Positions 9,343 to 51,693 of a stretch of 64,000 bases of DNA are shown one piece after another (within the stretch, counting starts at the first letter, position 1; every line of letters starts with the position of its first letter). The stretch spans positions 496,001 to 560,000 of the forward strand of contig NZ_CP030239.1 of the NCBI RefSeq assembly GCF_003285265.1, in the 5' to 3' direction. A program made the translations under genes and the position numbers. Below the pieces are notes generated by a model that had not been told where the DNA came from, made no database searches, and saw only the letters and a program-made list of their open reading frames with translations. The DNA is from Paracoccus mutanolyticus. GTDB taxonomy: Bacteria > Pseudomonadota > Alphaproteobacteria > Rhodobacterales > Rhodobacteraceae.

Positions 9343-10184
9343 CTAGAACAGCCCTTCGTGGCCCAAAAGCTGGTTCATCGTGTTCGACGGATCGGTGCAG
9401 CCCGCGTCGCCCACGATCCGCGCGGGCACCCCCGCGACGGTCTTGCAGGGCGGCACGTCGCTCAGCACGACCGAGCCTGCAGCAATGCGCGAATGATGCC
9501 CGACGTGGATATTGCCCAGGACCTTGGCCCCGGCGCCGATCATCACGCCATTGCCGATCTTGGGATGGCGGTCGCCATCCTCCTGCCGGTGCCGCCCAGC
9601 GTCACGGAATGCAGCATCGAGACGTCGTTGCCGACCACGGCCGTCTCGCCGATGACAATGGAATGGGCATGGTCGATCATCACCCCGGTGCCGATGCGGG
9701 CGGCCGGGTGGATGTCCACGCCGAACACCTCGGAACAGCGCATCTGCACGAAATAGGCCATGTCGCTGCGACCCTGCTGCCACAGCCAATGGCCGATGCG
9801 ATAGGCCTGCAGCGCCTGGAAGCCCTTGAAGAACAGGATCGGCTGCATCAGCCGATGCGTCGCCGGGTCCCGCTCATAGACCGCCAGCAGGTCGGCCATG
9901 GCCGCCTGCGCCAGTTCGGGCGCCCGGCCGAAGGCGTCGTCCGCGATCTCCCGCAGGATCTGCTCGCTCATCTCGCGCGAGGCGAGCTTCAGCGAAAAGC
10001 GATAGGCCAGAGCGGCGGCAAAGGTCGCATGGTGCAGCAGGCCGGCATGGATCAGCGCCCCCAGCAGCGGCTCGTCGCGCACGGCGATGCGGGCTTCGCG
10101 CTGGATTCGGGTCCAGACCGCGCCCATCGAGTCCGCGCGCGCGTCCTCGGGCAGCTTTTCGATCAGGTCCTTTTGAAGGTTCAT
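9343..10184 (-). CDS. cysE: Serine O-acetyltransferase, interrupted by one frameshift
   Basis: Makes O-acetylserine from serine and acetyl-CoA, the first step of cysteine synthesis. The N-terminal helical domain starts [18 protein letters not shown]. The left-handed beta-helix carries [24 protein letters not shown] and [10 protein letters not shown], and then the frame is lost near 9584. It resumes as [20 protein letters not shown] to the end. [15 protein letters not shown] is expected across the break, so one base (a T in CCTCCTTGCC on the plus strand) appears to be missing. The full product would be about 280 residues. It lies just downstream of the GTA cluster, separated from it by a hairpin. 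Confidence 0.88.
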
Positions 10185-10246: not shown

Positions 10247-10262
10247 CCCCGCTCAATCGGGG
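10247..10262 (-). terminator. Hairpin at the 3' end of the GTA cluster
   Basis: On the minus strand CCCCG pairs with CGGGG, followed by CTTTCC. The stop codon of the DUF2793 gene falls in the hairpin loop. It is a weak intrinsic terminator at best, separating the GTA cluster from cysE. Confidence 0.45.
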
Positions 10263-10966
10263 ACGCGCAACTCCCACCAGTGCAGGACCACCCGCACCCG
10301 GCCGCCGGCGAACTGGCCACCCGCAGCACCCAGCCGCAAAGCGGTCGGCTGCCAATAGGTGACGGGAGAGCCCAGCATGCCCCGAACCCAGGAATTCGCA
10401 GCCTTGCCCAGGTTTTCGTTGAAGCGGTTCGGAACGGCGGTATCGCCCAGGGTCCAGCTGGTCAGCGACCCGGTGATCGCCGTCAGGACCCGCGCGGTCA
10501 CGCCGACGACCATTGCGCCGGCGGGCACCACCATCGTGGTGTTAAAGACGTTTCCCGCCCCCAGCGTCACGTCCTCGGCCATCTGGCGCACGATCAGGCC
10601 CGAACCGTGCTGGCCCAGGCTGACCGCGCCCTCGACCCAGGTCGTGCCGTTGTGGATGGCGGGCACGCCGGTGTCGGCGACCAGGGCGCGCTTGCCAAAG
10701 CGGGGCCGGAAAAAGACCCAGCCCCCGTTCGCCCCGATGGCAACCTTGCCGGCCTGCCCCTCCCATGCGTTGACCGCGCCCTGTGGCACCGCCCAGCACA
10801 GCCCGTCGGCCACCACCTCGGGCGGCGTGGTGCGGGTCAGGCTTTGCAGCACCAGGTCGACCTGACCATCCAGCCGCAGCAGCGCGTCGTTGACGGTGAC
10901 ATGCTTTTGCGCCTGCGCGGGCATCAGCAGCGGCAGGTCCATGTTCGCGGTCGCGTTCTCAGCCAT
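10253..10966 (-). CDS. DUF2793-domain protein at the end of the GTA cluster
   Basis: A 237-residue protein whose first half matches the DUF2793 family found in phage and GTA tail regions: LPLLMPAQAQKHVTVNDALLRLD, then WVFFRPRFGKRALVADTG. The C-terminal half is beta-rich with Gly/Val stretches, plausibly a tail-fibre or host-contact module. It overlaps the g15 stop by eight bases, so it is probably co-expressed with the GTA tail genes. A receptor-binding or fibre role is inference from position; no enzymatic motif is visible. Confidence 0.8.
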   Translation of the reverse strand: MAENATANMDLPLLMPAQAQKHVTVNDALLRLDGQVDLVLQSLTRTTPPEVVADGLCWAVPQGAVNAWEGQAGKVAIGANGGWVFFRPRFGKRALVADTGVPAIHNGTTWVEGAVSLGQHGSGLIVRQMAEDVTLGAGNVFNTTMVVPAGAMVVGVTARVLTAITGSLTSWTLGDTAVPNRFNENLGKAANSWVRGMLGSPVTYWQPTALRLGAAGGQFAGGRVRVVLHWWELRVPD

Positions 10967-13900
10967 CGATCCTCATCCTTGCTTGGGGCCCGGCGCCGAA
11001 CGTGTCGGACAGTTGGGCAATCCTGATTTCAAAGGCGCCGCCCGCCTTCGCCGAACTCCAGACATCGGCCGGCACGGCCCAGCGCGGCTCGCCGACCAGA
11101 GCCTGGGCCAGCACGGCGCCATCGCGCACCAGGCTTGCGCTGTAGCGCTCCTGCGCCTCGCCCAGGGGAACGTCGGCGCCCTCCCAGCCGTCGCCCTGGA
11201 CGCGGGTACGGCGAACCCAGGTGACGGTGCTGCCGCGAACCGACAGGTGGCAGGGCGACAGCGGCCGCAGCCCAGCGCCCCGAAACGCCAGCGCCACATG
11301 GCGATAGCTGGCATCATCCACTGCCCGCGTCGCCGGCCCGATCCGCCAGTGCCGCATCTGGTTCAAGGCCGAGGGCGCCAGGTCCACCTGCCGCGCCGAC
11401 CCGTCCACCAGCACGACCGTGCTGCCGGCCGGCCAGACCTCGGGCATGAAGGCATCCGTGCCCGCCTGCCCCCGCAACCGGGTCGCGATGTCCCACACCC
11501 CCGGGGAAACCAGCCGCGCGTCCCGGAACTGCAGCAGCTCCCACCCCTCGGCCGAGCCGTCGCCCAGGGCCAGCAGGTTCGCCCCGCTCATCAAGGCGGT
11601 CTCGGTCGCGGACTCCAGCGCACCGCCCTTGACCCGGATGCGCAGCGCCGGACCCCGGTCCCAGACCCCCGGCCGCGCCGCCGCCAACGGTCCCAGCGTC
11701 ACCCCCATGATCGAGGCCGCGGGCACCGTCGTGTTCAGCGCATAGCCGCCCGCCTGCTGGGCCGAAACCCAGACGGCGGCGGCGCCCGGCCAGGGCGTGG
11801 CCGTGACCGCCAGATGCGGCGCATGGGGCACTTCGTCGCCCCGCAGCAGCGGCAGGTCCAGAAACACCGGCCAGACCGGGATCGGCGGGCTGGAGGCCCG
11901 GGCAACACTCTGGCCCTCGATCACCCGCGCCGGACGATAGACGCCGGGTTCGACGCGCACCGCATCCACGGTCATCGCGCCTGCCCGCTCGACCCGGTCG
12001 ATGCGCCAGCGGCGCGCTCCCGCCCTTGGCTCGACCAGCGCCACCACGTCCCCCGGTCCCAGATGACCCAGCGAGGGCGGCAGCGCAAAGCGCGCCGTGT
12101 CGCGGGCAATCACCGATTCCGAAATCCAGCGCTCGGCCATGGCCAGCCCCTCGGCGCGGGTCAACGCCATCGGCAGGGCGCTGCCATGACGCCATCGCTG
12201 CCCGCAGTGCAGTGGCGGTCATTCCGCCGAGACGGCATATCGCCGACAGAATCGACATGGAAGCCGGACACGGCCGGGGCCCGGGCACGCAGCGAGAGCC
12301 TGCGGGCATCGAAACACTTTGTCCGGCGCTCTGGCGGAACTGGAGCGGGTATCACCGCCGCAGCAGGGTGGGTGAAAACGCAGCACCCCGTCCCGCTCAA
12401 GCGCGTCGAAGCCATAGGTCAGCATCAACGGCTGCAAGGCCGCCCGCCCGGTTTCCGAGCCGGTCAGCGCATAGCCCCGCACCAGACCCGCCAGCCCCTG
12501 GGTGTCATAGGCCGCGACGCCGGCGGCAGCGCAGATCTCGGCCACCACGTCCGCCAGGGGCACGGCCCCGGCGCGACCGTTCAGCCAATGCCCGCGTTCC
12601 CAGGCAGGTCCGTCCGACCATAGGTCGGTCCGCGCCGGAAATGCGGGGAACGGCCGTGCGTCCCAGCACGAGACATGGGCGCGGCTCATGTCGATCATGC
12701 GCCCGGCCCCGATCCGCTCGCCGGCCTCGCGCAGGGGATTGTTCGCCGGATCGCCCCAATACTCGGTCATCGCCCGGACATAGGCCGCCTGCACCAGATC
12801 GTCCCGCCGCCCGTCCGAAAACCAGGGCAACCTGGATTCCGAGCTCATCGCATCCAGGAACTTGTTGGGCTGGTTCGTGCCCTTGTCCAGTGCCGCGCAG
12901 CCCATCTCGGTGAACCAGACGGGTTTCGAGCGCGGCACCCAGGCCGTGGGCCGCGCGCTGCGCTGTCCGCCGACGCGGTTGCGATGCTCGTTCGCCCACC
13001 AGCCGCGGATGTCCTTGTAGCGCCAGATCCAGTGCTCATGGTAAAGTCCGTCGCTGATCGGCGTGCGGATCTGCATCTCACGGTCGACGTCGCGGGCATA
13101 ATACCAGTCGAAGCCCTCGCCCCCCGCGACGTTCGCCTGCAAATAGGCCGGATTGTCGATCCGGCCCCAGGCGGCATCCAGATGATTCTCGCCCTCGCGC
13201 CAGTCCGACAGCGGCATGTAGTTGTCGATGCCCACGAAGTCGATGTTGTCGTCGCCCCACAGCGGGTCCAGATGAAAGAACACATCCCCGTTGCCGGGGT
13301 GATAGCCGAAATACTCCGACCAGTCCGACGCATAGCCGATCTTGACCGCATCCCCCAGGTCGCGCGCACGTCGGCCGCCAGGCGGATCAACTGCTCGACT
13401 GCCGGAAAGCGATGATCCGCCCCCTGGATCTGGGTCAGCCCCACCATCTCGGAGCCGATCAGGAAGGCATCGATCCCCCCCGCCGCCGCGCAAAGATGCG
13501 CGTAATGCAGGATGAACCGCCGATAGGACCACTCGTCGGGACCGGAATAGCGGATCTCGTCCCCTTCGCGCGAAAAGTCGCTCGCCCTGGCCGTTCCGAA
13601 GAACGCCGCAACCTCATTCTCGGCGGCGGCGGTGCCTGCGGGGCTGCCCGCGCGGTCCGCCGCGATGCTCGTCGTGATACGGCCGCGCCAAGGCATCACG
13701 GGCTGGTCGGCCGCGCCGGTCCAAGGGTCGGCCCGGCCGTTCCCTGCCAGCTGCTCCATCAGGATGAAGGGATAAAAGACCGCCTTCCGCCCACTGGGCG
13801 CAAGCGCCCGCAGCGCCTCGATGACCGATCCGTCGGCCGGCGTTCCGCCATAGATCGGACGCCCGCCGACCCGTGCGACCTCGACCGCCGCATCGCGGCC

Positions 13901-14836
13901 GATGCCGCCGGCGCGCCAGGCCACGCCCTGCCCGTCGCGGGACTTGACCTCGACCTCCGGCCGCACCGTGCAATGGTTCACCCTCAGGTCGTCGCCGAAC
14001 CAGGACACGACCAGCGACACCGAACCCACATTCGGCAGTTCGCGCCCCAGGATACGCAACGAGGCGCGGAAATCCGTTCCCGCGATCGGCGTGTTGCGGT
14101 TGATGACCTGCGTTTCGCCCAGACCCAGGTCATAGCTGACCGGCGTGGTCGCCAGAGAATATTCTCCCGTGCCAGGGATCATGGCGACGGCCCGCACCTC
14201 GCGCGACAGCCCCCGCCCTTCCTTGGCGCGGCGCGTCACCTCGAACGACAGCTGCGGCACACGGTTGCCCCAGCGCTCAAGCCCCAGGTCCTCCAGCACG
14301 ACATAGGCGATGCCGCGATAGGCTGGCGCCTCGTCGCCTTCCTGCGCGACGATGGCGGGGTCGGGCAACTGCGCCTCGTCCCCAAGATAGACCCGCATGT
14401 TCAGATCGTCGGGCGAGATTTCCTCGCCATCCGCCCAGACACGGCCCACCCCCAGGATCGGACCCTCGCACAGGGCCAGCGCAAAGCTCAGCCGATAGCT
14501 GACCTCGGTGACGCTGGGGCTGGACCCCTTGCCGCCGCCACCCTGGGTGCGGCGCACCCCGACCAAGGGGCCGGCCCAGATCGCATGGCCGGGCACGCGC
14601 ATCTGCCCCCAGATCCGCGGGATCGGCGTGCCCTCGCCCGCGGTCTGGATCCGCATCCGGTCCACCCGCCCCGTCTCGACCGCCTTCGAGCCAGAGCCCA
14701 GCAGCTTCTGGTCGATCACCCGGCCCAGGGTCGCCCCCACGGCCCGGCCGATGACGGCGCCCGACAGGCCCAGAACGGTGCCGCCAAAGCCCGCACCGAT
14801 GGATGCACCGGCCGCCGCCAGCAGAATCGTCGCCAT
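10959..14836 (-). CDS. GTA g15 tail/host-specificity megaprotein, frameshifted
   Basis: The largest GTA gene, about 1,292 codons, close to the length of Rhodobacter capsulatus gene 15. It has an N-terminal glycine-rich membrane-like stretch (MATILLAAAGASIGAG). A phage tail-hub region follows (RVDRMRIQTAGEGTPIPRIW), then the GTA TIM-barrel-like domain (SEMVGLTQIQGADHRFPAV, IGYASDWSEYFGYHPGNGD, KPVWFTEMGCAALDKGTN) and a C-terminal beta-rich domain ending RMRIDG. The frame breaks near 13,366 and at least twice between about 12,170 and 12,370, where no frame gives clean family sequence. All three long fragments match consecutive parts of one protein. It probably forms the tail tip and contacts the recipient cell. 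Confidence 0.88.
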
Positions 14837-14851
14837 TGCGCCTTCCTTCTC

Positions 14852-15280
14852 TCATGTCAGGGGCGGAAACCGGAACCTGCCCGCGATCTTTGCCCGCCAC
14901 GGCGTCGAAAGCGGGCTTTCGACGACGCCATGCCGGTCATAGGCATGCACAAAGCTTGCCCCGGCCCCGGTTTCAGCCAGAATACCCATGTGCTTGGCGA
15001 TGGCGCCGGATCTCATGCGAAAGATCAGCACATCGCCCGCCGCCTCGGGACCCGCGGGCAGCAACAAGCGCCCCGCCCCGCCCAGCAGCAACTCCTGCGC
15101 CCCCGCCTCGCCCCAGTCGGGGGTATAGGCGGGCAGCGCCTCGGGCTCGGGACCGTAAAGCTCGCGCCAGATGCCCCGCACCAGCCCCAGGCAATCGGTT
15201 CCCGCCCCCTTGACCGAGGCTTGGTGCACATAGGGCGTGCCGATCCAGCCTCGCGCCGCCGCAACGATGCGCTGGCTCAT
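14852..15280 (-). CDS. GTA g14, NlpC/P60-family cell-wall peptidase
   Basis: A 142-residue NlpC/P60 cysteine peptidase. The catalytic cysteine sits in GAGTDCLGLVRGIWREL, preceded by WIGTPYVHQASVKG. The catalytic histidine is in IAKHMGILAETG, followed by a third polar residue in FVHAYDRHGV. In the R. capsulatus particle the homologous baseplate protein is thought to cut recipient peptidoglycan during DNA delivery. The start at 15280 (MSQRIVAAARGW) overlaps the g13 stop as ATGA. The reading frame is open upstream, but that region belongs to g13. Confidence 0.93.
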   Translation of the reverse strand: MSQRIVAAARGWIGTPYVHQASVKGAGTDCLGLVRGIWRELYGPEPEALPAYTPDWGEAGAQELLLGGAGRLLLPAGPEAAGDVLIFRMRSGAIAKHMGILAETGAGASFVHAYDRHGVVESPLSTPWRAKIAGRFRFPPLT

Positions 15281-16100
15281 GACCCGACCTGCGGGGCGAT
15301 CAGCCAGTCCTCGGGCGGCAGATGCGGAAAACCCCGGAAATTGGCATAGTTCAGGAACTTCAGCCGGCAGGTCGCGGCCCGCTTGTCGCAACCCGCCACC
15401 AGCTTCACCCGATCGCCCGCGGCCGGGGCGATGCCCAAGGCCGCCCAAAGCGCGATCTCGCGTCCGCCGGGACCGGCCAGATCGCTCTTGACCAGCCCCT
15501 CCAGCCCGGCGGCCGCGCCGCTCAGCACGATCAGGCGGCCACGCTCGAACCAGCCGGCCTCGTGGTTCGCGATGCCGCCAAGGGTCAGGCGCTCGCCTTC
15601 CTCATGGGCGCGGACGACGCCTTGGGCGCTGTAGCCTTCGGCACCCAGGTCGAAACGGCACTTGCCGTCGCCCAGCTGGGCCGAGCAGCGCGGATGATAG
15701 ACCCGGCCCTGCGTGCGGTTCAGCGGTTCGGACAGACCCCGCAACTCGGCGCGGAACGACCGGCCGCTGCGGCTGACCTCGCCCAGGTGGCCGCGAAAGA
15801 CCAGGACTCGGTTCGCCGTATTGGCCCAGTCGACCTCCCACAACCGTACCTCGGCGGCGTCCCACCGGCCCGCCATGATGTCGACCCGGTGATCGCATCG
15901 ATCGACAGGGCGCCGCTCGCCTCGGTGTTATCGAGCGACAGGCCCGCGCCCTTGCACGGACGGCCGCGGCGCTCAGCACGCTATCGGGGCGAAAGGTGAT
16001 CCGCCCCGAAGGCCAGCATCCGGTCGTGGTCGGTAAAGCCCAGGACCAACCCATCCCGGCGCGTCACGGCCCAGGCCCGCGCAATCGTCTCGCCCTTCAC
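15277..16100 (-). pseudogene. GTA g13, DUF2163 tail/baseplate protein, several frameshifts
   Basis: A baseplate hub component with DUF2163 and phage_BR0599-type domains. The GTG start at 16100 overlaps the g12 stop as GTGA and gives VKGETIARAWAVTRRDGLVL, the usual start of this family. The frame is lost near 16,007, again near 15,950 and near 15,897. It is recovered as DIMAGRWDAAEVRLWEVDWA and continues intact to the C-terminus. The family cysteines are present in YHPRCSAQLGDGKCRFDLG and AGCDKRAATCRLKFLNYANF, a pattern likely to hold an iron-sulphur cluster or metal in GTA hub proteins. Sequence error is the likely cause of the breaks. Confidence 0.82.
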
Positions 16101-16732
16101 AGCCGCACCTCGATCACAGGAACATCGGGCAGGTCGCCCGCATGGAACGACGCCACCGAAACCGAAATCCGGTCGGTATCGAACCGCACCGGCACGTCGA
16201 ACTCGAACCCGGCCGAGACTGCGGCGCCAGCCTCGGGCGGCACGGCGAAATGCACGGTGCCCGTCACGGTATCGACAGTGAAATCGCGTCCTGCGGCCAG
16301 TTCCACGCCCCGATCCCGGCCAAGCGGGTGTTCGACCGGCTTCGCGATGAGTGCGGCTTTACCGGCGGCTATACGATCATCAAGGACTACATTCGGGAGC
16401 GGGAACGGCGTCCGCACCCCGTCGCCCCGGCCCAAGACCTGGTCGCCGAACGCCGGCGCCACGCTGGGGGCCGAGGATTTGTAATCCGACCAGTCCTTCC
16501 AGCGGAACCCGTGCAACTGACCGGCGCGCGCCTCGAAAAAGGCGATCAGCAGCGACACGTCGTCCAGCGACCGCAGGCCCATGCCCGCGTCATAGCGGCG
16601 CCGCGAATGGGCCCAAGGGCTCGACCGCTCCTCATGCCCGTTGGTCAGCGCGACGATCTCCGTGCGCCGTTCGGGCCCGCCCACCGACCCGAAGGAAAGG
16701 CTGGCGGGAAACCTGATCTCGTGAAATGCCAT
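16097..16732 (-). CDS. GTA g12, DUF2460 distal tail protein
   Basis: A 211-residue protein of the DUF2460 (TIGR02217) family: FHEIRFPASLSFGSVGGPER at the start, then HSRRRYDAGMGLRSLDDV and FFEARAGQLHGFRWKDWSDY. In the R. capsulatus particle the homologue forms the distal tail ring between the tail tube and the hub. It is six bases from g11 and overlaps g13 by four. The middle part (about residues 110 to 145) reads less like the family, which may reflect a compensated pair of indels. Confidence 0.9.
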   Translation of the reverse strand: MAFHEIRFPASLSFGSVGGPERRTEIVALTNGHEERSSPWAHSRRRYDAGMGLRSLDDVSLLIAFFEARAGQLHGFRWKDWSDYKSSAPSVAPAFGDQVLGRGDGVRTPFPLPNVVLDDRIAAGKAALIAKPVEHPLGRDRGVELAAGRDFTVDTVTGTVHFAVPPEAGAAVSAGFEFDVPVRFDTDRISVSVASFHAGDLPDVPVIEVRL

Positions 16733-16738
16733 CTGTCG

Positions 16739-17407
16739 TCATCCGTTCCTGTCGCCGCGCGCCAGCATCCGGCCGAACCGGGCCGCGATCTGGCTTTGGC
16801 TGCGGGCGAACCCGCCCACATCGGGGGTCGAGACGTTGAACGTGACGTTGACCGCCCGGCCTCCGCCACCCGCCACCGCAACCCCCAGCTTGCCGTCGGC
16901 CCCGCGCCGCAGGGGCATGATCGCCTCGGGCCCCGCCTCGCCCATCAGCCCGGTCGCGCCGCGCATCGGGAAATAGGTGGGCTGGCTGACCACGCCCCCC
17001 TTGGCAAAGGGCATCACCCGCCCCTGCGAAAAGCTGCCGCCGTCGGCAAAGGGCATCGCCCCCGACACCAGCCCCGTCACCCCTTGCGAGATCGCGCCCG
17101 CCAAGGCCTGCTGAATCGGCCGCATGGCAACCGAAAAGGCGCTGTCGGCCATGCTGCGCGCCACGGTGGACAAGGCGTCGCTCAGCTTCATGCCGTCGAA
17201 CACCAGCCCGTTGAAGGCGCGGCGCAGCCCGCTGCCGATCCCGCTGGTTAGCGAGCCGACCTCTCGGTTGGTGTAAAGCATCGACTCGCGCAGCCGCGAC
17301 AGTTCCTGTTCAAAGGCGGCCGTCACCCGGCCGCTGTCGTCCAGGCTTCGGCCCAGCGTGCCGTCCCCTGCGTCGGCCAGACCGCCGAACCCGTCCTTGC
17401 TCGCCAT
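16739..17407 (-). CDS. GTA g11, short tail tape-measure protein
   Basis: A 222-residue tape-measure protein with the lambda-type tail tape-measure C-terminal motif: MPFAKGGVVSQPTYFPM, GLMGEAGPEAIMPLRRG and FADGGSFSQGR. Tape-measure proteins of phages run to hundreds or thousands of residues. This short form matches the short tail of GTA particles. The N-terminal half is helical with Ser/Leu-rich repeats. It follows g10.1 after 22 bases. Confidence 0.92.
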   Translation of the reverse strand: MASKDGFGGLADAGDGTLGRSLDDSGRVTAAFEQELSRLRESMLYTNREVGSLTSGIGSGLRRAFNGLVFDGMKLSDALSTVARSMADSAFSVAMRPIQQALAGAISQGVTGLVSGAMPFADGGSFSQGRVMPFAKGGVVSQPTYFPMRGATGLMGEAGPEAIMPLRRGADGKLGVAVAGGGGRAVNVTFNVSTPDVGGFARSQSQIAARFGRMLARGDRNG

Positions 17408-17429
17408 GACCGGCGCCTCCTTTCGACAA

Positions 17430-17651
17430 TCAGTTCTGCTTGGGCGCGGGCCGGTCGGGATAGCGCGCCACCAGCTCGGCCAGCCGGTCGCGCGTCATCG
17501 CGCCGCCGCCCCCCTCGATCCCCAGCATCAGGGCCAGTTCGGCCGGGGTCAGCGCCCAGAAGGTCGCGGGCGTCAGCCCCAGCCCGCCCAGCCGCGCCGG
17601 CCCCATGCCGACCTTCATCAACCCCGGCCAGTCCAGCCCCCGGGCCCTCAT
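17430..17651 (-). CDS. GTA g10.1, phage tail assembly chaperone-like
   Basis: A 73-residue protein of the Rcc01693/phage_TAC_6 type: WPGLMKVGMGPARLGGLGLT then FWALTPAELALMLGIEG. Position between g10 and the tape-measure gene matches the tail assembly chaperone pair of siphophages, which bind the tape measure during tail assembly. Its start overlaps the g10 stop by four bases. Confidence 0.85.
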   Translation of the reverse strand: MRARGLDWPGLMKVGMGPARLGGLGLTPATFWALTPAELALMLGIEGGGGAMTRDRLAELVARYPDRPAPKQN

Positions 17652-17965
17652 GCGCCCTCGATGCGAAACGCCCGCGCCAGCATCGCGGCTGCCGTGTGGG
17701 CCGCGGCCACCGGACCGCCCCGGATGTCGCAGGCGCCCAGCGCGGCGATATCCCCGCTCCAGCCGGCCCCGCGCAGCCCCGCGACCAGCACCGCCATCAC
17801 GTCGCGGGTGGAAAATCGCCCGCTCTCGAACCGCTCGACCAGGGCGATCATGCTTTCCGCGCCCAGTTCGGCCTCAAGCTCGGACAGGGCGCCCAGGGTC
17901 AGCTTGCCGACATGGGGCACCCCGTCCAACACGACCTCGACCTCTCCCGCCAAAGGATTGGCCAT
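17648..17965 (-). CDS. GTA g10, gene-transfer-agent tail assembly chaperone family
   Basis: A 105-residue member of the GTA_gp10/phage_TAC_11 family. It shows MANPLAGEVEVVLDGVPHVG, then KLTLGALSELEAELGAES and FSTRDVMAVLVAGLRGAG. The ATG at 17965 is one base before the end of the tail-tube gene, and that start gives the family N-terminus; the longer open frame runs into g9. The product probably acts with g10.1 in tail assembly. Confidence 0.88.
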   Translation of the reverse strand: MANPLAGEVEVVLDGVPHVGKLTLGALSELEAELGAESMIALVERFESGRFSTRDVMAVLVAGLRGAGWSGDIAALGACDIRGGPVAAAHTAAAMLARAFRIEGA

Positions 17966-17966
17966 C

Positions 17967-18380
17967 TCAGAGCGTGTTGAAGCTGAGCACGCCCGCGCTT
18001 GCCATGGAAACTTCATAGGTCGCCTCGCCATTGTAGCTGCCGGAATATTCCAGGCTGGTAATCTGGAACGGCCCCTGCACCGTGCCGAAATCGGGGATCA
18101 CCACCTGGAACTCGGGAACCTCGCCGTCGAAAAAGACCTGCCGCGCGCGTTCGTCCGTGGTGCCGTCCCGAAACACCCCCGACCCCGAGATCGTGGCCGA
18201 CCGCACGCCCGCGCCGCCCAGCAGCTCACGCCAGCGCCCTTCGCTTTCGATGCTGGTCACGTCGACCGTCTCGGCGTTGAAGCTGATGCGGGATGCCCGC
18301 AGTCCCGCGATGGTCTCGAACAGACCGTCCCCGGTCATGTCCATCTTGATCAGCAGATCGCGCCCGTTCTGCACCGCCAT
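17967..18380 (-). CDS. GTA g9, major tail tube protein
   Basis: A 137-residue protein of the TP901-1-type major tail protein family: MAVQNGRDLLIKMDMTGDGL, then the conserved GLRASRISFNAETVDVTS, ESEGRWRELLGGAGVRSATI and SLEYSGSYNGEATYEVSM. It polymerises as rings to form the tail tube. The start at 18380 is chosen over a codon five residues upstream because it gives the family N-terminus; an AGGAGAAACGACATG context supports it. Confidence 0.93.
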   Translation of the reverse strand: MAVQNGRDLLIKMDMTGDGLFETIAGLRASRISFNAETVDVTSIESEGRWRELLGGAGVRSATISGSGVFRDGTTDERARQVFFDGEVPEFQVVIPDFGTVQGPFQITSLEYSGSYNGEATYEVSMASAGVLSFNTL

Positions 18381-18391
18381 GTCGTTTCTCC

Positions 18392-18811
18392 TCAACCAAG
18401 GTCAATGCGGGCGCGAAAGGTCAGGTCGACCCGCCGCCCCGCGCCGTTTTCCGCCCGGCGCGCCTTGGCGCGCAGGAACCAAAGCCCCGCCAGTCGGCCC
18501 CGCGCCAGCCCGATCCGCGCCGTCTCCAGCGCGTCCGACACCGCCACGGCGGCCGCCTTGACCGCACTGAATCCGTTCGCATCGTCCGATCCCGACAGGA
18601 CCGAGACGACGAAATCATGCTGCGATCCGGCGGCCGTCATGTCGCCCGCGTCGCGGACCTCTTCGGGCCCAAGCGAGACATAGGTGCCCGCCGGCGCCGC
18701 CACCGGCATCGCGTCATAGATCGCGTCGCCGACCAGCGCGTGCAGGGCGTCGTCCTCGCGCAGCACCTGATAGACTGCCGCTTGCAGCGCGGCCGTCGCG
18801 GCATAGCTCAT
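18392..18811 (-). CDS. GTA g8, DUF3168 tail terminator
   Basis: A 139-residue DUF3168 protein: ALQAAVYQVLREDDALHALV, DAIYDAMPVAAPAGTYVSLG, then a C-terminus ending LTFRARID. In tailed phages and GTA this protein caps the tail tube and joins it to the head connector. It overlaps g7 by four bases and precedes the tail-tube gene by 12 bases. Confidence 0.9.
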   Translation of the reverse strand: MSYAATAALQAAVYQVLREDDALHALVGDAIYDAMPVAAPAGTYVSLGPEEVRDAGDMTAAGSQHDFVVSVLSGSDDANGFSAVKAAAVAVSDALETARIGLARGRLAGLWFLRAKARRAENGAGRRVDLTFRARIDLG

Positions 18812-19158
18812 GCCAGGGACTCCTCTTTGGCGATACAGACCAGATAGCGGCCGGGTCGGTCGCTCTCGGCCACGGCTTCGATGCGAAAGCGGCGCTCGGC
18901 GGGGCCCGCGCCCAGCCGCAGCCGCTGCTCGGGGCGCGGGCGGCGCGGGTCGCCGGCAGCCGCCGCCCGGACGGTGATCCGCCAGTTGACGACGCTTTGC
19001 GCCCCCACCTCGGCGAACCGTTCAGCCCCCGCACCCGACCGCATTTCCGCCCAGATCCGTCCGATCGGCTGCCAGGACAGCGCAAAGCCGCCCATGCCGT
19101 CTGCCGCCCGGACCGGAGATTCCAGGACCAGCGGCACAGTCAGACGCGGCAGGTTCAT
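18808..19158 (-). CDS. GTA g7, head-tail adaptor/stopper protein
   Basis: A 116-residue phage head-tail joining protein (SPP1 gp16-type): RLTVPLVLESPVRAADGMGG, WQPIGRIWAEMRSGAGAERF and RFRIEAVAESDRPGRYLVC. It forms a ring below the portal. It overlaps g8 (ATGA) and the recovered g6 3' end. Confidence 0.9.
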   Translation of the reverse strand: MNLPRLTVPLVLESPVRAADGMGGFALSWQPIGRIWAEMRSGAGAERFAEVGAQSVVNWRITVRAAAAGDPRRPRPEQRLRLGAGPAERRFRIEAVAESDRPGRYLVCIAKEESLA

Positions 19159-19767
19159 GCCCGGCCGCGCGAAGCACCGCGCCCCCCCAGCACCCGGACC
19201 GAGCGCCAGCGCTCGATCAGCGCGCCGACACTGAAGGGCATCGCCGCCTGCGTGCCCTCGAACACCCGGTCCTCGTGATAGCGCGCAGCCACATCAGGAC
19301 GCCTGCGCCAGATCGGCCGGCACCGAACCCAGGCACGGGCCAACCCGCGGCAAACGTCCGGTCACGAACCCCGCCTCCGGCACCGCCGGCAGGCAGCCGC
19401 CCCGGGGCAGCAGCATCGGCCGCTGCATGTCCGGCGCCAGCCGATAGACCCCGGGATCGACCAGCGTAACCTCACCCGCGCCATCGTCCATCTCGACCCG
19501 CTCGACGGCATTGACGGGCGCCAGCGGCAGCGGCTGGCCGGCCGGATCGCGCCAGTCCTCCAGCCGCAGCCGGAACTGCCGCGCCAGCAGCACCTTGCCG
19601 GTGCGCGCCTCGATCGTGGCGATGGCAGCGCGCAGAAAGCCCGCCAGCGCCAGCGTCTCGGCCTCGTCCTGGGCCATCTCGAAACCCGATCCCAGCCGCA
19701 GGTGCTCGCGCAGCCCCGCGACTGGCAACGCCGCCAGCGCCGGCGCCGTCAATTCCACAAGCATCAT
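19155..19767 (-). CDS. GTA g6, head-tail connector, one frameshift
   Basis: A head-tail connector of the phage_gp6-like family. The N-terminal part reads MMLVELTAPALAALPVAGLR, then a helical region and GVYRLAPDMQRPMLLPRGG. The first frame stops at 19294, just after VPADLAQAS. The expected C-terminus continues in another frame as ARYHEDRVFEGTQAAMPFSV and IERWRSVRVLGGRG, ending at 19155 and overlapping g7. The join is near 19,290 to 19,300. A GGAGGTTCG ribosome site precedes the ATG at 19767. Confidence 0.85.
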
Positions 19768-19902
19768 CTTCGAACCTCCGTTCGCACGGTCGCTGCGTTC
19801 CATTCGGACGAAAAAGGGGGCCGCGCGTGTCCGCCCATGCGCGCGCGGACAGCTTTGCCGGTAAAGCGGCACTGGCCGCGCGGCCCCCGCTTCGGCCGTG
19901 GA

Positions 19903-21062
19903 TCAGCCGAAGACCATCAGCTTGATGGCGCGGGCGTCGGTGACGCCGCCACCGACGCGCTTGGTGGCATAGAACAGCACATGCGGCTTGGCCGAGAAGG
20001 GGTCGCGCAGCACCCGCAGGTCGGGACGCTCGACGATGGTATAGCCCGACTTGAAGTCACCGAACGCGATCGAGGCCGAGCCGTTGGCGATATCGGGCAT
20101 GTCCTCGCACAGCAGCACCGGATAGCCCAGCAGCTGCGGCGGCTGGCCCATCGCCAGGCTGTCGGCCCACAGGAAGCGGCCGTCCGTGTCGCGCATCTTG
20201 CGCACGGCGGCGGCAGTCTTCGAGTTCATGACGAAGGTCGCATTGGCCCGGTATTGCGCGCCCAGCGCATAGACCAGGTCGATCAGCGCGTTCGCCGGGT
20301 TGGTCGCCGCGAAATCGCCCGTTGCGCCCGAGGCGATGGTCCCGATCTGCACGTTGGTCGCGGTGGCGTTCGCGGCGCGGGCATGGGTCAGGAACCCCTT
20401 GGGCTTGTTCGTGCCGTCGCCGCTGATGAAGGCGGTCGCTTCGGCGCGGATGAACTTGTCGGCGATCCGGCCGGCCAGCCAGCTTTCGACGTCGAAGGCC
20501 GCGTCGTCCAGCAGGCGCTGGCTGGCCTTCGGCATGGCCGACAGCTCGTGGACCGGGATCACCACGCGGGTCACGGTCGCGGTGCCGGTCTCGGCCTGGG
20601 CCGCGGCCTCGGTCGCCCAGCCGCTGGCGATGTCGCCCATGTCGACCAGCTTCTCGAGGACGTGGTTCACCTCTGGCTGACAAAGTTTGCCGGCAGCGCG
20701 CTGGTGCTGTTCAGCGCCTTCTGCTCCTGCAGCGCCACCGTCGGCGGCCAGGAACCCCCGTCCGAGGTCGAGGTCATGGCCTTGCCCTCCAGCGGCAGCC
20801 CGCGCAGCGCGCCGTCGTCGCCGTGGCGCACATAGGCGTCGAACGCCTTCTGGTGCGGCGCGCCCGCATCGGCCTCGACCGACAGAGGGGCGCGAGCGCG
20901 GGAAAGGGTCTTGCGGTCCAGCATGGTCATGCGATCTTCCTGTGCTTCCAGTCGTTTCTGAATATCGGAACGGAATGCCTTGAGTTCGCTGACGAACCCC
21001 AGCATCTCGGCCCCCAGGTCGCCGGGCATGTCCGCCCCGGCCGCGGCTTTCACCTCGGTCAT
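19903..21062 (-). CDS. GTA g5, HK97-type major capsid protein, frameshifted
   Basis: The N-terminal scaffold-like region (MTEVKAAAGADMPGDLGAEM, coiled coil FRSDIQKRLEAQEDRMTML) leads into the linker APHQKAFDAYVRHGD and the capsid-family sequence EGKAMTSTSDGGS. The frame is then disturbed between about 20,690 and 20,760. It recovers as DMGDIASGWATEAAAQAETG and runs to the end (SGYTIVERPDLRVLRDPFS, DARAIKLMVFG). The span of about 386 codons matches HK97-fold GTA capsids. It would build the small head that packages host DNA. Confidence 0.9.
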
Positions 21063-21084
21063 CGTCCCCTCCATCTGGTGAAAT

Positions 21085-21621
21085 TCACTCGGCGCGCAGC
21101 GCCTGCGCCGCGGCCCGGAAGGCCGCCGCCAGTTCCAACGCGCCATCGGACTTGCGCCCGACCTTGGCCTCGGCGAGCATCGGGAAGGTCACCAGCGACA
21201 CCTCCCACAGCTCGACCTCGGACAGCAGCCGGCGCCCCTTGGCGTCGCGCTCGGCGGAAATCGTGCGATAGCCGATCGACAGCCCGTCGATGGCGCCCGC
21301 CGCAATCAGCGCGGCGGCCTCGCGGGCCTGCCCGATCTCGGGCAGCAGCCTGCCCTTGACCCACAGGCCCTTCTCGTCCTCGCGGATCTCGTCCCAGACG
21401 CCGATGGGCTTGGCCGGGTCGTGCTGCCACAGCATCCGCACCTTGTCGCCCCGAGCTGCCAGCCGCTTCAGGCTGGCCGCATAGGCGCCCCTCCGGACGA
21501 TGTCGCCGCCCTGGTCGGTCAGCCCGAACAGGCTCGCATAGCCTTCCAGTTGCGTGCCGTCCGCCACCAGCGCCGAGCCCGGGGCGAACTTCAGTTCCAA
21601 CCCGTAATCCTTTGAATTCAC
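21085..21621 (-). CDS. GTA g4, HK97-family prohead protease
   Basis: A 178-residue capsid maturation protease: LEGYASLFGLTDQGGDIVRR, the catalytic histidine in VRMLWQHDPAKPIG, and the serine in AIDGLSIGYRTISAERD. It trims the N-terminal region of the capsid protein during head maturation. The coding frame is intact, and the gene sits 22 bases upstream of the capsid gene in the transcription direction. Confidence 0.94.
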   Translation of the reverse strand: MNSKDYGLELKFAPGSALVADGTQLEGYASLFGLTDQGGDIVRRGAYAASLKRLAARGDKVRMLWQHDPAKPIGVWDEIREDEKGLWVKGRLLPEIGQAREAAALIAAGAIDGLSIGYRTISAERDAKGRRLLSEVELWEVSLVTFPMLAEAKVGRKSDGALELAAAFRAAAQALRAE

Positions 21622-21622
21622 G

Positions 21623-21856
21623 TCAGCCTCCTTTCGGGGTAAAGGTCAGGATCGACTGCACCGCTTGGGTCAGGATCACCGCGACGACGCCATAGACCGT
21701 CATCCACAACCGCCGCTCCAGCCCCTCGATCAGCGACTCGATCCGCTCCAGCCGCCGCTCGACCTGCCCGAACTGCAGCGCCATGATCCGCTCCTGCGTG
21801 TCGAAGCGCTGGTCGTGCCAGCCGAAGGGCTCCTTCACGAAACGCGAGCCCTCCAT
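21623..21856 (-). CDS. GTA g3.5, small head-formation protein
   Basis: A 77-residue protein. It has an aromatic, charged N-terminus (FGWHDQRFDTQERIM), a coiled coil (QVERRLERIESLIEGLERRL) and one membrane-like helix (VYGVVAVILTQAVQSILTF). Position between portal and protease and this pattern match the GTA head-formation protein of the RCAP_rcc01685 type. It starts directly after the portal stop codon. Confidence 0.82.
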   Translation of the reverse strand: MEGSRFVKEPFGWHDQRFDTQERIMALQFGQVERRLERIESLIEGLERRLWMTVYGVVAVILTQAVQSILTFTPKGG

Positions 21857-23041
21857 CTATTCCTCCGCCAGCGGCGGCAGGCCCAGCGCGGCCCGCTTCT
21901 CGGCATCGGTCAGAAACAGCGCCTCGCCGATCCGCTTCCACTGCCCGTCGCGCTCCTCGGCCAGGGCGGGCACCTGGTCGGGGTCGGCGCGCAGGTCGAT
22001 CTCGGCCCCCAGATGCTCGGACAGCCACCAGGCGACGGCGCTCGCGACCCGCGACACCAGCGGCAGCACGGTCAGGCGATAGAACGCCCGGTGCGCCTCG
22101 GCGTAATTGGCATAGGTCGCCTCGCCCGGAATGCCCATCAGCATCGGCGGCACGCCGAAGGCCTGGGCGATCTCCCGCGCCGCCGCCAGCTTGGTCTCGT
22201 GGAACTCCATGTCGCTGGGGCTGAACCCCATCGGCTTCCAGTCCAGCCCCCCCTCCAGCAGCATCGGCCGCCCGGCGTTCCGCGCGCCCTGGTGATGCAT
22301 CTCCATCTCGCTCACCAGCCGGTCGTACTGGTCGGACGACAGGCTGCCCTGCCCGTCCGCCCCCTTGTAGACGATGGCGCCGCTCGGCCGGGCCGCGTTG
22401 TCCAGCAGCGCCTTGGACCAGCTTGACGCGCTGTTGTGCACATCCACCGCCACCGCCGCCGCCTGCATGGGCGACAGGCCGTAATGGTCGTCCAGCGGGT
22501 GGAAGCTCTTGATGTGGCAGATCGGGTCGGGACTGCCCACCATGTCGAAGCGGACCTTGCGCCCGCCGACCGCGTATTCATAGGCCGCGGGCCAGCCATC
22601 CGGCCCCGGCACCACCGCCATCCGGTCCGAGCGCAGGACGTGCAATTCCCCCGGCAGCCCCTTGGCGCCCTCGCCCACCGCCTCCAGATAGCCGTTGCCG
22701 CTCAGCAGGATCTGGCCGTACAGCGCCTCGAACAGTTCGGCCCGGCCCTGGCCGATGTTGGGCCGCCGCAGCAGGTCCAGCACCGGGTGCGTGTCATAGC
22801 GCCGCTCGCGGTCCTGGCACAAAAGCGGCACGGCGGCGGCGGCCTCGGCGATAAGCCGCACGGCGCGGAACCCGACCGGATTGCCGGCAAACCCGGCATT
22901 GGTCAGGCTGACCGTGTCGCGCGGCGACCAGACCACCCGCCCCGAGCCCGCCGCCAGCGCCACCACCTTGCCCGCGGCGCTCGCCTTTTTCTCGACTTCG
23001 ACGGCGGGCGCAGCCGCTCGCCCGAACCAGGGAAATGCCAT
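21857..23041 (-). CDS. GTA g3, HK97-family portal protein
   Basis: A 394-residue portal, the dodecameric ring through which DNA enters the head. It starts MAFPWFGRAAAPAVEVEKKA behind a strong AGGAGGGACCG ribosome site. The family core is seen in GFRAVRLIAEAAAAVPLLCQ, HPVLDLLRRPN, QILLSGNGYLEAVG, ICHIKSFHPLDDHYGLSPMQ and SPSDMEFHETKLAAAREIAQ. The open frame extends about 450 codons upstream, but that part overlaps the terminase in another frame and is a shadow. The length is typical for GTA and HK97 portals. Confidence 0.94.
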   Translation of the reverse strand: MAFPWFGRAAAPAVEVEKKASAAGKVVALAAGSGRVVWSPRDTVSLTNAGFAGNPVGFRAVRLIAEAAAAVPLLCQDRERRYDTHPVLDLLRRPNIGQGRAELFEALYGQILLSGNGYLEAVGEGAKGLPGELHVLRSDRMAVVPGPDGWPAAYEYAVGGRKVRFDMVGSPDPICHIKSFHPLDDHYGLSPMQAAAVAVDVHNSASSWSKALLDNAARPSGAIVYKGADGQGSLSSDQYDRLVSEMEMHHQGARNAGRPMLLEGGLDWKPMGFSPSDMEFHETKLAAAREIAQAFGVPPMLMGIPGEATYANYAEAHRAFYRLTVLPLVSRVASAVAWWLSEHLGAEIDLRADPDQVPALAEERDGQWKRIGEALFLTDAEKRAALGLPPLAEE

Positions 23042-23088
23042 CGGTCCCTCCTGAAATCCCATTGAAAAAGGGCCGCCAAGGGCGACCC

Positions 23089-24492
23089 TTAGCGCACCAG
23101 CAAACTCTTCCGCTTCGCTTCCGAGATTTGCGTGCGATCTCCCCGGGGCAGAGCCCCAGCCGATGGCGAACCCCGTCGCCGCGTGCCGCGACGAACCGGA
23201 AGAGCGCGCCGCCTCTTCCAGACCATCTCCAGCCAACCTCGGCGGTTGGATCGCCCGCCCGTTCCGGCCACGCTCATGCGGCACATCTGGTCCTCCAGGG
23301 CGCCAAGGCGGCGCAGGTGATGCACCCGCCCCTGCTCGTACAGCGCCGCGACCGGCTCGGCCCGCAGCCCCTTGCCGCGGCCGGCGCGCAGGGCCCGGAA
23401 CGGCACCAGCGGGTCGATCTGGCGGATCACGCTCTCGACCAGATCGCCGCCCTGGTTGACCTCGGCCACCAGCCGCTCGGCGCCATGCCGGTCCATCGCG
23501 GCAATCGCGGCGCGCGCCCAGTCCGTCGGCCCGCCCCGGACCGTGGCGTCCTCCAGCACATAGGCCCGCCATTCCGTCACCGGCCCCTCGGCCAGAACGC
23601 CCGCGACCACGATCCCGCATTCGTCGGACGCCGCACCCGCCGTCACCGCCGGATCGACAGCCACGACCACGCGCGACAGTTTCGGCGCCCGGTCCACCCG
23701 GCAGCGCTCGACCATCGCGGTCGTCCACAGTGCGCCTTCGACATCCTCCAGAAGCAGCCCTTCCAGCTCCTGCCGGCCCAGCCGCGTGCCGGCATAGCGG
23801 CTTTCGACCTCGGCCAGGAAGCTCTCGGCCAGATAGGCGCGGTTGGCGTCCGTCGGCGCATGGGTGGTGACGGTCGAGGCGTTGCCCAGAATCCGCTTCA
23901 GCACCCCCACATTGCGCGGTGTCGTGGTGACGACCTGCTGCGGATGCTCGCCCAGACGCAGCGCGAATTGCAGCATGTCCCAGCTGTCCTCGGCCTTCTT
24001 CCACTTGGCCAGTTCGTCGACCCAGGCGGCATCGAACTGCGGCCCGCGCAGGGCCTCGGGCTCGTGCGCCGAATAGACCTGCGCGGTCGCGCCATTGGGC
24101 CAGATCAGCCGCCGCCGCCCCGCCTCCCAGACCGGACGCCGGTCCGGGGGCGAACAGGCCAGAATCCCCGACTCGCCAAAGACCATCACGTCCCGCGCCT
24201 GGTCGAAGGTCTCGCTGACCAGCGCCACGCGATGCGCGCGGCCCGGCGCATCCGGCGTCGCCCCCTCGACCTGGGACCGCACCCATTCGGACCCGGCGCG
24301 GGTCTTGCCCGCGCCGCGCCCGCCCATGATGACCCAGGTCTTCCAGTCGCCCTCGGGCGGCAACTGGTGCGGCAGCGCCCAGAACTCGAACAGCCACGGC
24401 AGCGCCGCCAGCGCATTGCTGCTCAACCCCTCCAGGAAGGCGTCAACTTCCTCCGGCTCTGCGCAGGCAAGCCAGGCGGCGCCCGATTTCAT
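23089..24492 (-). CDS. GTA g2, large terminase (TerL)
   Basis: DNA-packaging motor. The ATPase part shows the Walker A motif (VIMGGRGAGKTRAG) and Walker B motif (FDAAWVDELAKW) plus VVTTTPRNVGVL. The nuclease part shows VVVAVDPAVT and VAEVNQGGDLVE. GTA terminases cut host DNA by headful rather than at a cos or pac site. The start at 24492 (MKSGAAWLACAEPEEV) is chosen; an ATG at 24561 is in frame. The last roughly 55 residues (after AGTGGRS) do not read like the usual SPDRxDALVWAL ending and run across a GGGGCTCTGCCCC palindrome. Confidence 0.92.
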   Translation of the reverse strand: MKSGAAWLACAEPEEVDAFLEGLSSNALAALPWLFEFWALPHQLPPEGDWKTWVIMGGRGAGKTRAGSEWVRSQVEGATPDAPGRAHRVALVSETFDQARDVMVFGESGILACSPPDRRPVWEAGRRRLIWPNGATAQVYSAHEPEALRGPQFDAAWVDELAKWKKAEDSWDMLQFALRLGEHPQQVVTTTPRNVGVLKRILGNASTVTTHAPTDANRAYLAESFLAEVESRYAGTRLGRQELEGLLLEDVEGALWTTAMVERCRVDRAPKLSRVVVAVDPAVTAGAASDECGIVVAGVLAEGPVTEWRAYVLEDATVRGGPTDWARAAIAAMDRHGAERLVAEVNQGGDLVESVIRQIDPLVPFRALRAGRGKGLRAEPVAALYEQGRVHHLRRLGALEDQMCRMSVAGTGGRSNRRGWLEMVWKRRRALPVRRGTRRRGSPSAGALPRGDRTQISEAKRKSLLVR

Positions 24493-24805
24493 CTCGTGCC
24501 GCGACAAGGTCGAGTGCGCCTGCACCGACCTGTCCGGCAGCATCCTTGCGTAGCTTGTCAACCTTGCCCCTTTCCTCCAGCACCATCTTGGTCGCTTCCC
24601 GCAGAGAGCGCACCAGATTGCCGGACTCTTTCAGATCACCTGCGTCCCCCGCCTCGATCTTTTCCCGCAAGCGGGTCAGATCGGCGGCATAGGACCAGAA
24701 CAGCCCGTCGGCGATGTCCAGCACGTCCATCTCGGTCGCCTCCTCGGCGACCGACGCGAACGGTCCTTCCGGTGGCTCCTGCCCCGGATCGAAGTTTACT
24801 GTCAT
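24443..24805 (-). CDS. GTA g1, small terminase-like protein
   Basis: A 120-residue mostly helical acidic protein at the head of the GTA cluster. It reads MTVNFDPGQEPPEGPFASVA, then DIADGLFWSYAADLTRLREK and a coiled coil, SLREATKMVLEERGKVDKLR. Position and composition match the small terminase (gene 1) of Rhodobacterales GTA, which is short and lacks strong DNA specificity. It overlaps the TerL start by 50 bases. The start at 24805 is chosen over an upstream codon because it follows the leader hairpin directly. Confidence 0.78.
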   Translation of the reverse strand: MTVNFDPGQEPPEGPFASVAEEATEMDVLDIADGLFWSYAADLTRLREKIEAGDAGDLKESGNLVRSLREATKMVLEERGKVDKLRKDAAGQVGAGALDLVAARDEIGRRLACLRRAGGS

Positions 24806-25064: not shown

Positions 25065-26240
25065 CTAGTCGCCCTGGACCGGCGACATGGCCTGCCCGCG
25101 CTGCCGTTCGATCTCGCGCCAGCGCCGGACGTTCTGGTTGTGCTCCTCCAGCGTGCGGGCAAAGGCGTGCCCGCCGCTGCCATCGGCCACGAAGAACACA
25201 TAGTCCGAATCGTCCGGGTCCAGCGCCGCCTCGATCGAGGCGCGCCCCGGGTTCGCGATCGGCGTCGGCGGCAGGCCCGCGATCTGATAGGTGTTGTAAG
25301 GTGTGCGCCGCCGCAGCTCGGACCCGCGGATGCCGCGATCCAGCACGCCCTTGCCTTGGGTAATGCCATAGATCACGGTCGGGTCCGTCTCCAGCCGCAT
25401 GCCCTGGCGCAGGCGGTTGACAAAGACGCTGGCGACCAGCCGCCGCTCGTCCGGGACCGCCGTTTCCTTCTCGATTATCGAGGCCATGATCAGCGCCTCC
25501 TGCGGCGTCCGATAGGGCAGCCCGGTCTCGCGCGCCTCCCAGGCCTGGGCCAGGAAATTCGCCTGCCGCCGCGCCATTTCGGCCAGCAGCGTGGCGCGGT
25601 CCGCGCCCTTCTGCACGTCATAGGTGTCGGGGGCCAGGCTCCCCTCCTCGGGAAGGTCCGCGACCTCGCCGGCCAGGAAGCCGGCCTGCTTCAGCCCCTC
25701 GACCACCTGCCAACTGGTGACGCCCTCGGCCACCGCGATGCGAAGCCGCGCATCGGGCCGCGCCTCGGCAGCCTGGATCGGCGCCGGAACCGGCTCGCCG
25801 GGGATGTATTTCGCCTGCTCGGCCATCTGACCCGTGGCGGCGTCGGTGTCGCGCAGGATGACCGAGTTCTCGCGCACGCCGATGCGGAACACGATCTCGG
25901 TCCCGCAGGTGCTGGGCCCGCCGGCGGTGATCGCGGCGACCACGTCGGCCATGCTCGCGCCCGGCGGCATCAGGTAGGATCCGTATTTCAGGTCGCGCGA
26001 CTTGCCCGCATAATCGGCGCCCGCGCGAAAGATATAGGCGTTCGACACCACGCCCTGCGCCGCCAGGCTTTCGCTGACCGCGCTCAGGCTTGCGCCCGGC
26101 GGCACGCGCACGCAGGATGCGACGGCGCCGGGCCCGGGGGCAGTGTATTGGTGCTTGGCCCAGGCCACCGCCGCCGCCACGGCGATCAGGATGACGATCA
26201 GCAGCGTCAGGAAGTTCGACGCGACGTGGCGCCAGATCAT
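25065..26240 (-). CDS. mltG: Endolytic murein transglycosylase MltG
   Basis: Inner-membrane lytic transglycosylase that cuts nascent glycan strands and so sets their length. It has 391 residues: one N-terminal membrane helix ([19 protein letters not shown]), a LysM-like region, then the YceG domain with the catalytic glutamate in [19 protein letters not shown] and the conserved [11 protein letters not shown] and [17 protein letters not shown]. Its ATG overlaps the fabF stop as ATGA. The fabF-mltG pair is a conserved arrangement. It is the last gene before the GTA cluster. Confidence 0.95.
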
Positions 26241-27498
26241 TCGGCCGCCCGCCCCATCACCAGGCTTGCGTTGGTGCCGCCAAAGCCGAAGCTGTTGGAC
26301 AGCACATAATCCACCTTGCGGCGCACGGCAGCATTGGCGGCCAGGTCGATGGGCGTCTCGCGCGACGGATTGTCCAGGTTTATCGTCGGCGGGCAGATCT
26401 GGTCGCGGATCGCGAGGATGCAGAAGATCGCCTCGACCGCGCCCGCCGCGCCCAGCAGGTGCCCGATGCTGGACTTGGTCGAGGACATGACCACGTTCCC
26501 CGCCGCATTGCCCAGCATCCGCTCGACCGCGCCCAGTTCGATCACGTCGGCCATGGTCGAGGTGCCGTGCGCGTTGATGTAGTCGATATCGGCGGGCGAC
26601 AGGTTCGCCCGCTTCAAGGCATTGGTCATGCTGCGGAAACCGCCATCGCCATCCTCGCTGGGGGCGGTGATGTGATAGGCGTCGCCCGACATGCCGTAAC
26701 CCAGCACCTCGGCATAGATCTTGGCGCCGCGCGCCTTGGCGTGCTCGTATTCCTCAAGGATGACGATGCCCGCGCCCTCGCCCATGACGAATCCGTCGCG
26801 GTCCTCGTCCCAGGGGCGGCTCGCGGCCTGGGATCGTCCTCGCGCCTGGTCGACAGCGCCTTGCAGGCGTTGAAGCCCGCGACGCCGATCTCGCAGATCG
26901 GGCTTTCGGCGCCGCCCGCGACCATCACGTCGGCATCCCCCAGCGCGATCAGCCGCGCCGCGTCGCCGATGGCGTGCGCGCCCGTGGAACAGGCCGTGAC
27001 GACCGCATGGTTCGGCCCCTTGAAGCCAAACCGGATGCTGACCTGCCCCGACACCAGGTTGATCAGCGCGCCGGGAATGAAGAAGGGCGAGACCCGCTTG
27101 GCCCCGCGTTCCTTGATCAGCACGGCCGTGTCGGCGATCGAGGACAGCCCGCCGATGCCCGAGCCGATCATGACGCCGGTGCGCTCGCGCTCATCCTCGT
27201 TGGCGGGAACCCAGCCCGAATCCTTGACCGCCTGTTCGGCGGCGGCCATGCCGTACAGGATGAAGTCGTCGACCTTGCGCCGGTCCTTGGGCTCCATCCA
27301 GTCGTCGGGATTGAACGTGCCGTTCGTGCCATCGCCCAGCGGCAGTTCGCAGGCGTATTTCGTCGCAACGCCGCTGGTGTCGAACCGCGTGATCGGCCCG
27401 GCCCCGGATTCCCCCGCCAAAAGGCGCTTCCAGGTCTCTTCGACCCCCGAGGCCAGCGGCGTAACCATCCCAAGCCCGGTGACGACAACTCTGCGCAT
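26237..27498 (-). CDS. fabF: Beta-ketoacyl-ACP synthase II, one frameshift
   Basis: Elongating condensing enzyme of fatty-acid synthesis. It starts [20 protein letters not shown]. The nucleophilic cysteine is in [20 protein letters not shown], and the two histidines are in [14 protein letters not shown] and [20 protein letters not shown]; it ends [14 protein letters not shown]. The frame is broken near 26,830: [19 protein letters not shown] is expected, and one C of a CCCC run (minus strand) is missing. Restoring it gives a normal protein of about 420 residues. As an essential gene, it is strong evidence that such breaks are sequence errors. Confidence 0.92.
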
Positions 27499-48509: not shown

Positions 48510-48569
48510 CGCCCCTTCGGCCCGCGCGCCCTGCGCGCGGGTCGCCCGCTAGCCTGAGAGGACCCGCCG

Positions 48570-51373: not shown

Positions 51374-51394
51374 CAGTGGGCGCCAGGACTGCAG

Positions 51395-51421
51395 AAAGGC
51401 CCGCAGCGATGCGGGCCTTTT
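51395..51421 (+). terminator. Intrinsic terminator of the yjbH-yjbF unit
   Basis: AAAGGCCCGC and GCGGGCCTTT pair around AGCGAT and end in TTTT. The bases from here to 51,642 hold no recognisable gene, only GC-rich sequence. Confidence 0.85.
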
Positions 51422-51668: not shown

Positions 51669-51693
51669 CCTTGCCGAGCTTCCTGGCGGAAGA

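Follow-up and report, generated by a model that had tools for sequence, protein, structure and literature searches.

The window, a stretch of 64,000 nucleotides from the chromosome of Paracoccus mutanolyticus RSP-02, carries an RcGTA-type gene transfer agent (GTA) cluster on its minus strand, in which g1 to g15 and a DUF2793 gene follow one another in canonical order from the start codon of g1 at position 24805 to the stop codon of the DUF2793 gene at 10253 (Table 1). The cluster, about 14 kb long, sits between cysE on one side and mltG and fabF on the other. The open frames match Pfam or PHROG families for the large terminase (TerL), portal, S78 protease, HK97-type capsid and head closure; these are followed by tail completion, tail tube, GTA-gp10 (PF11836), TAC_6 and short tape measure families, and then by DUF2460, BR0599/gp84, NLPC_P60 (slightly under its cut-off), GTA_TIM, Rcc01698_C and DUF2793. 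g1, g3.5 and g6 were placed by alignment to P. limosus. The genes, their order and the single strand proposed in the initial annotation were confirmed by these profile matches together with the alignment to P. limosus, and its identification of the block as a GTA is supported by three GTA-named Pfam models (GTA-gp10, GTA_TIM and Rcc01698_C) and by the loci of relatives. Among the best 80 loci retrieved with the window capsid, 61 were full length, and in every one of these, drawn from many genera, those of the g2 to g15 genes that were found are colinear; g6 occurs in 60 of these loci, g3.5 in 52, g1 in 49, the DUF2793 gene in 34 and the other g2 to g15 genes in all 61. GC skew is negative all through 10-30 kb of the window (-0.07 to -0.13 per 2 kb), consistent with the location of GTA clusters in GC-skew peaks given in a passage of PMC9836097.

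Table 1. Features of the GTA cluster and of its immediate flanks (window positions).
Feature	Position	Strand	Evidence and state
g1, small terminase position	24443..24805	-	start ATG at 24805; aligns to P. limosus g1 without frameshift; no Pfam or PHROG match
g2, large terminase TerL	23089..24561	-	Terminase_6N and 6C; frame open to 23089, foreign 3' end from ~23260
Heterologous block replacing the TerL 3' end	23105..23259	.	unaligned to same-species G138
g3, portal	21857..23041	-	PF04860, E 2e-85; frameshift-free
g3.5	21623..21856	-	77-aa ORF of P. limosus, 91% identity; frameshift-free
g4, prohead protease S78	21085..21621	-	PF04586, E 2e-29
g5, major capsid protein	19903..21074	-	PF05065, E 7e-81; frameshift near 20661 at divergent block
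Divergent block in g5, no donor found	20651..20725	.	29 events in 75 bp vs G138
g6, head-tail adaptor	19155..19770	-	phrog_442, weak, E 2e-8; frameshift near 19292
g7, head closure	18808..19140	-	PF05521
g8, tail completion, gp17-like	18392..18811	-	PF11367
g9, major tail tube	17967..18380	-	PF06199, E 1e-47
g10, GTA-gp10	17648..17971	-	PF11836; frame checked
g10.1, TAC_6	17427..17651	-	PF09550
g11, short tape measure, 222 aa	16739..17407	-	PHROG tape-measure families, best E 1e-17
g12, DUF2460	16097..16732	-	PF09343, E 1e-74; frame open, replaced block inside
Heterologous block in g12, IS21 istA sequence	16323..16408	.	plasmid matches annotated istA, IS21 transposase
g13, hub protein	15277..16100	-	PF09356, PF09931; single-base indels at three places
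g14, NlpC/P60	14852..15280	-	PF00877, E 9e-5, 22.8 bits, just below the cut-off of 23
g15, large tail tip protein	10959..14836	-	phrog_4271, GTA_TIM, Phage-tail_3 and Rcc01698_C over three pieces; broken near 13360 and at 12177-12379
Heterologous block in g15, IS5-element-related	12177..12379	.	plasmid matches
DUF2793 gene after g15	10253..10966	-	PF10983, E 9e-28
Flank, cysE	9343..10184	-	SATase_N; frameshift near 9584
Flank, mltG (YceG)	25065..26240	-	PF02618
Flank, fabF-type ketoacyl synthase	26237..27498	-	PF00109; frameshift near 26829

The RcGTA-type assignment was made by gene content, and homology suggests how the cluster would work. The products of g1 and g2 would package host DNA, and those of g3 to g5 would provide the portal and build the head. 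Connector, tail tube and tape measure would come from g6 to g11, and the baseplate and tip from g12 to g15. The particles predicted in this way would transfer about 4 kb of host DNA and would be released by a holin encoded at a separate location. The cluster itself is passed on vertically with the chromosome. The genomes of R. capsulatus, P. limosus and the same-species G138 each have one copy of the GTA holin family (PF11351), as does the source genome (half the profile), and none of 14 control genomes has it.

The structural genes of the window copy are not all intact. The frameshifting indels that the initial annotation had reported in g5, g6, g13 and g15 are all present in the window sequence; its list of damage stands for these indels and omitted the replaced 3' end of g2, a replaced block in g12, the divergent sequence that forms part of the breaks in g5 and g15, and the indels of surrounding genes, a telA-type gene among them. 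Host sequence of 86-203 bp is replaced by mobile-element DNA (plasmid, IS21-type and IS5-related) in g2, g12 and g15. Over 166 bp, the g2 block shares 99.4% identity with a region of the P. yeei TT13 plasmid pTT13-6 that is close to mobQ and has no genes listed, and a 95-bp part of the block is identical to G000:C1:3185421-3185515 in the source genome; with just these two strong copies there, a dispersed repeat was rejected as its explanation. At the second site, the 95-bp plasmid-like piece terminally extends the frame of a gene that by eye resembles one for a small heat-shock protein, and is possibly another misplaced block. In TerL, the g2 block deletes the conserved C-terminal SPDRxDALVWA segment, a motif that is kept in all 61 full-length relatives and reads SPDRLDALVWA in G138. 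The g12 block shares 60 identical bp with G000:C1:3175668-3175727 of the same genome, and the g15 block is 88% identical over query positions 7-202 to a P. yeei plasmid (no feature is listed there) and 70-75% identical to plasmid stretches annotated as IS5 family transposase, with partial matches elsewhere in the source genome. The 75-bp block in g5 gave no plasmid match, and a plasmid origin was rejected for it; among other Paracoccus genomes, one has its best match (82% over 77 bp), and there are short matches besides. All four blocks are close in length to what they replace (155 vs 163 bp in g2, and net changes, summed by hand, of -15 bp in g15, +3 bp in g12 and -4 bp in g5), and this near preservation of length fits small repeat contigs placed in the gaps of a reference-guided scaffold.

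In the same-species genome G138, none of the 18 GTA genes is interrupted within its homologous length, the TerL end is intact, and the cluster occupies the position beside cysE and mltG/fabF that it also has in P. limosus. The dN/dS ratios between G138 and P. limosus range from 0.064 to 0.358 for 17 genes (g10 was checked for openness alone), values that show purifying selection on the GTA genes. Because the G138 genes are all open and dN/dS is low, the cluster is intact in the species; G138 is another strain, and as such does not prove the GTA content of RSP-02 itself. An independent genome with confirmed stop codons in g5 and g15 was, in the initial annotation, one finding that would speak against a complete cluster; no such stops were seen in that other strain.

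Aligned to G138, positions 1-59470 of the window fall into four long pieces of 96.7-97.9% identity and one 2.2 kb piece of 90.5%, with 288 indels and 1,279 substitutions. From this alignment 17 blocks were called, three within the GTA and the remaining 14 in the right flank, apart from the unaligned g2 end at 23105-23259; the count of 17 still holds two alignment effects, at 30727 (where a 51-base probe matches G138 at 98% over its full length) and at 56358 (within short repeats that match G138). The blocks are unevenly placed, with none of the 17 in 1-12 kb and a dense group at 48-52 kb. One pair of blocks in the right flank repeats window sequence that lies close by, the origins of the right-flank blocks having been sought by comparison with the window, G138 and P. 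limosus alone. The density of differences from G138 peaks at window positions 48001-52000, with 87 frame-changing indels in 4 kb. At 38192-38487, a region that aligns poorly to G138, stretches of 62 bp and 85 bp each occur exactly twice, about 190 bp apart, which is likely an assembly duplication, and at 55920-56490 imperfect short repeats align to several places in both G138 and the window.

Measured against P. limosus, the GTA has 10 net frameshifts in 5 of 18 genes over 14,432 bp (0.69 per kb) and the flanks have 18 in 9 of 22 genes, cysE and fabF included, over 20,088 bp (0.90 per kb); in these counts a replaced block scores as an indel, the g2 block is missed (it causes no net shift), and some of the flank frameshifts are at divergent gene ends. 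The comparison with G138 gives indel densities per kb of 4.37 for the GTA, 1.17 for the left flank and 6.15 for the right flank; outside the called blocks the values are 1.06, 1.17 and 2.44, respectively. Decay specific to the GTA was rejected, since its indel rate does not exceed that of the flanks in the comparison with P. limosus and falls between those of the two flanks in the comparison with G138. Homopolymer error was likewise rejected as the sole cause: 143 of 152 single-base deletions lie in runs of 1-2 bases (many of them within blocks of unsure alignment), and such error leaves the foreign blocks unexplained.

Similar defects are found elsewhere in the genome, in a 20-kb stretch around rpoB that shows 22 indels in 18,621 aligned bases against G138. 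In rpoB, which was named by the position of PF00562, 12 single-base deletions within ~185 bp jointly preserve the frame, and the genes that we take from their N-termini to be rpoC and fusA have three and two frame-changing pieces, respectively, in the source genome when compared with G138. We consider the assembly to be at fault, because a living cell could hardly have broken both rpoC and fusA. The published genome (CP030239; 3,592,357 bp in one contig, with 3,889 coding sequences and 1,492 pseudogenes) was built from Illumina reads, 694 contigs being mapped to a P. yeei reference genome, and its authors named assembly artefacts as a possible cause of the pseudogenes (PMC6256630). This method explains both the indels and the foreign blocks, the latter if, as we infer, small mobile-element contigs were placed into scaffold gaps during assembly. 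Given a reference-guided Illumina assembly, the broken rpoC and fusA, and a same-species genome with 18 open genes, the GTA damage is best read as sequence error, and the breakage in RSP-02 is almost certainly an artefact of assembly and not decay. We are thus highly confident that the block is the chromosomal RcGTA-type (alphaproteobacterial type I) GTA cluster of the P. yeei-group strain P. mutanolyticus RSP-02, and that its damage arose in the assembly.

It is very unlikely that the cluster has truly decayed in RSP-02, with mobile-element pieces replacing parts of g2, g12 and g15, and perhaps of g5, and GTA production lost as a result. Such decay would accommodate blocks that go beyond errors of single bases: of those in the GTA, three out of four match known mobile DNA, and the one in g2 deletes the conserved TerL end. 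Points against an assembly artefact are the uneven density of indels and blocks, the left flank having fewer indels than the GTA, and a g5 block for which no donor was found. However, divergent blocks also occur outside the GTA, with 14 of the 17 in the right flank (at least two of these 14 being alignment effects), a similar damaged stretch is present in rpoB, rpoC and fusA are frameshifted, and the published assembly method accounts for both kinds of defect (PMC6256630); each GTA block, moreover, nearly keeps the length of the sequence that it replaces, unlike an insertion. We find it highly improbable that RSP-02 is a rare natural GTA-null strain, in which short plasmid and IS replacements, with the TerL end lost, were brought about by short-patch illegitimate recombination. 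Double recombination of this short-patch kind was rejected as a natural cause because there are too many blocks, a similar stretch exists in rpoB, and a limited literature search found no paper describing it.

That the block is an ordinary prophage or a prophage remnant is scarcely credible. Most of its genes do also match general phage families, and the source genome contains another HK97-type capsid homologue (G000:C1:655155-655880), but the latter is just 44% identical to the GTA capsid and probably belongs to a separate prophage. GTA-named models match the cluster, the same block is found in the same order in many genera, and its genes are under purifying selection. The lack of integrase, replication and lysogeny genes claimed in the initial annotation held up in a non-exhaustive scan of 30 flanking ORFs, in which no such family passed the Pfam cut-off and four ORFs had no match of any kind. 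An assembly artefact in a GTA cluster remains our reading, and it carries a warning that extends beyond the cluster: an assembly presented as "complete" in one contig has frameshifted rpoC and fusA and mobile-element DNA in chromosomal genes, and claims of pseudogenes or decay drawn from it, for the GTA or for other genes, are untrustworthy without the reads or a second genome.

The GTA cluster of P. limosus JCM 17370 has the same genes, order and flanks (cysE, mltG and fabF) as that of the window, and its capsid piece is 94% identical. It differs in an additional 168-aa ORF between g1 and mltG that the window does not have; the ORF is apparently missing from G138 too, as the window and G138 align continuously there. 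A search of 24 same-genus genomes with the GTA capsid piece gave no match in two (one of them 71% complete), a very weak match in one and a match of 47% identity in another, and some Paracoccus may lack the cluster or carry it on missing contigs. The likeness extends to RcGTA of R. capsulatus, presumably at locus tags rcc01682-rcc01698: the TerL proteins of R. capsulatus and P. limosus share 78% identity, the capsid piece of the window is ~70% identical, and the GTA holin family is common to the R. capsulatus and source genomes. Particle production is described for RcGTA in a passage of PMC9662315, and for the window cluster it is predicted by homology. The same source groups RcGTA with three RcGTA-like agents in the Rhodogtaviriformidae, under a proposal that admits functionally demonstrated agents only. 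The window cluster is an ordinary one, already reported for its species, and adds little on GTAs as such. The closest counterpart is the GTA operon of P. yeei CCUG 32053, which belongs to the same species group and, as described in a section of Lasek et al. 2018 (PMC6209633), comprises 17 ORFs in ~13.5 kb, with 99% identity reported for its counterparts in two more P. yeei strains. Likened to that description, the window copy, with the DUF2793 gene counted as an eighteenth, is set apart by frameshifts and foreign blocks, for which assembly is the best explanation.
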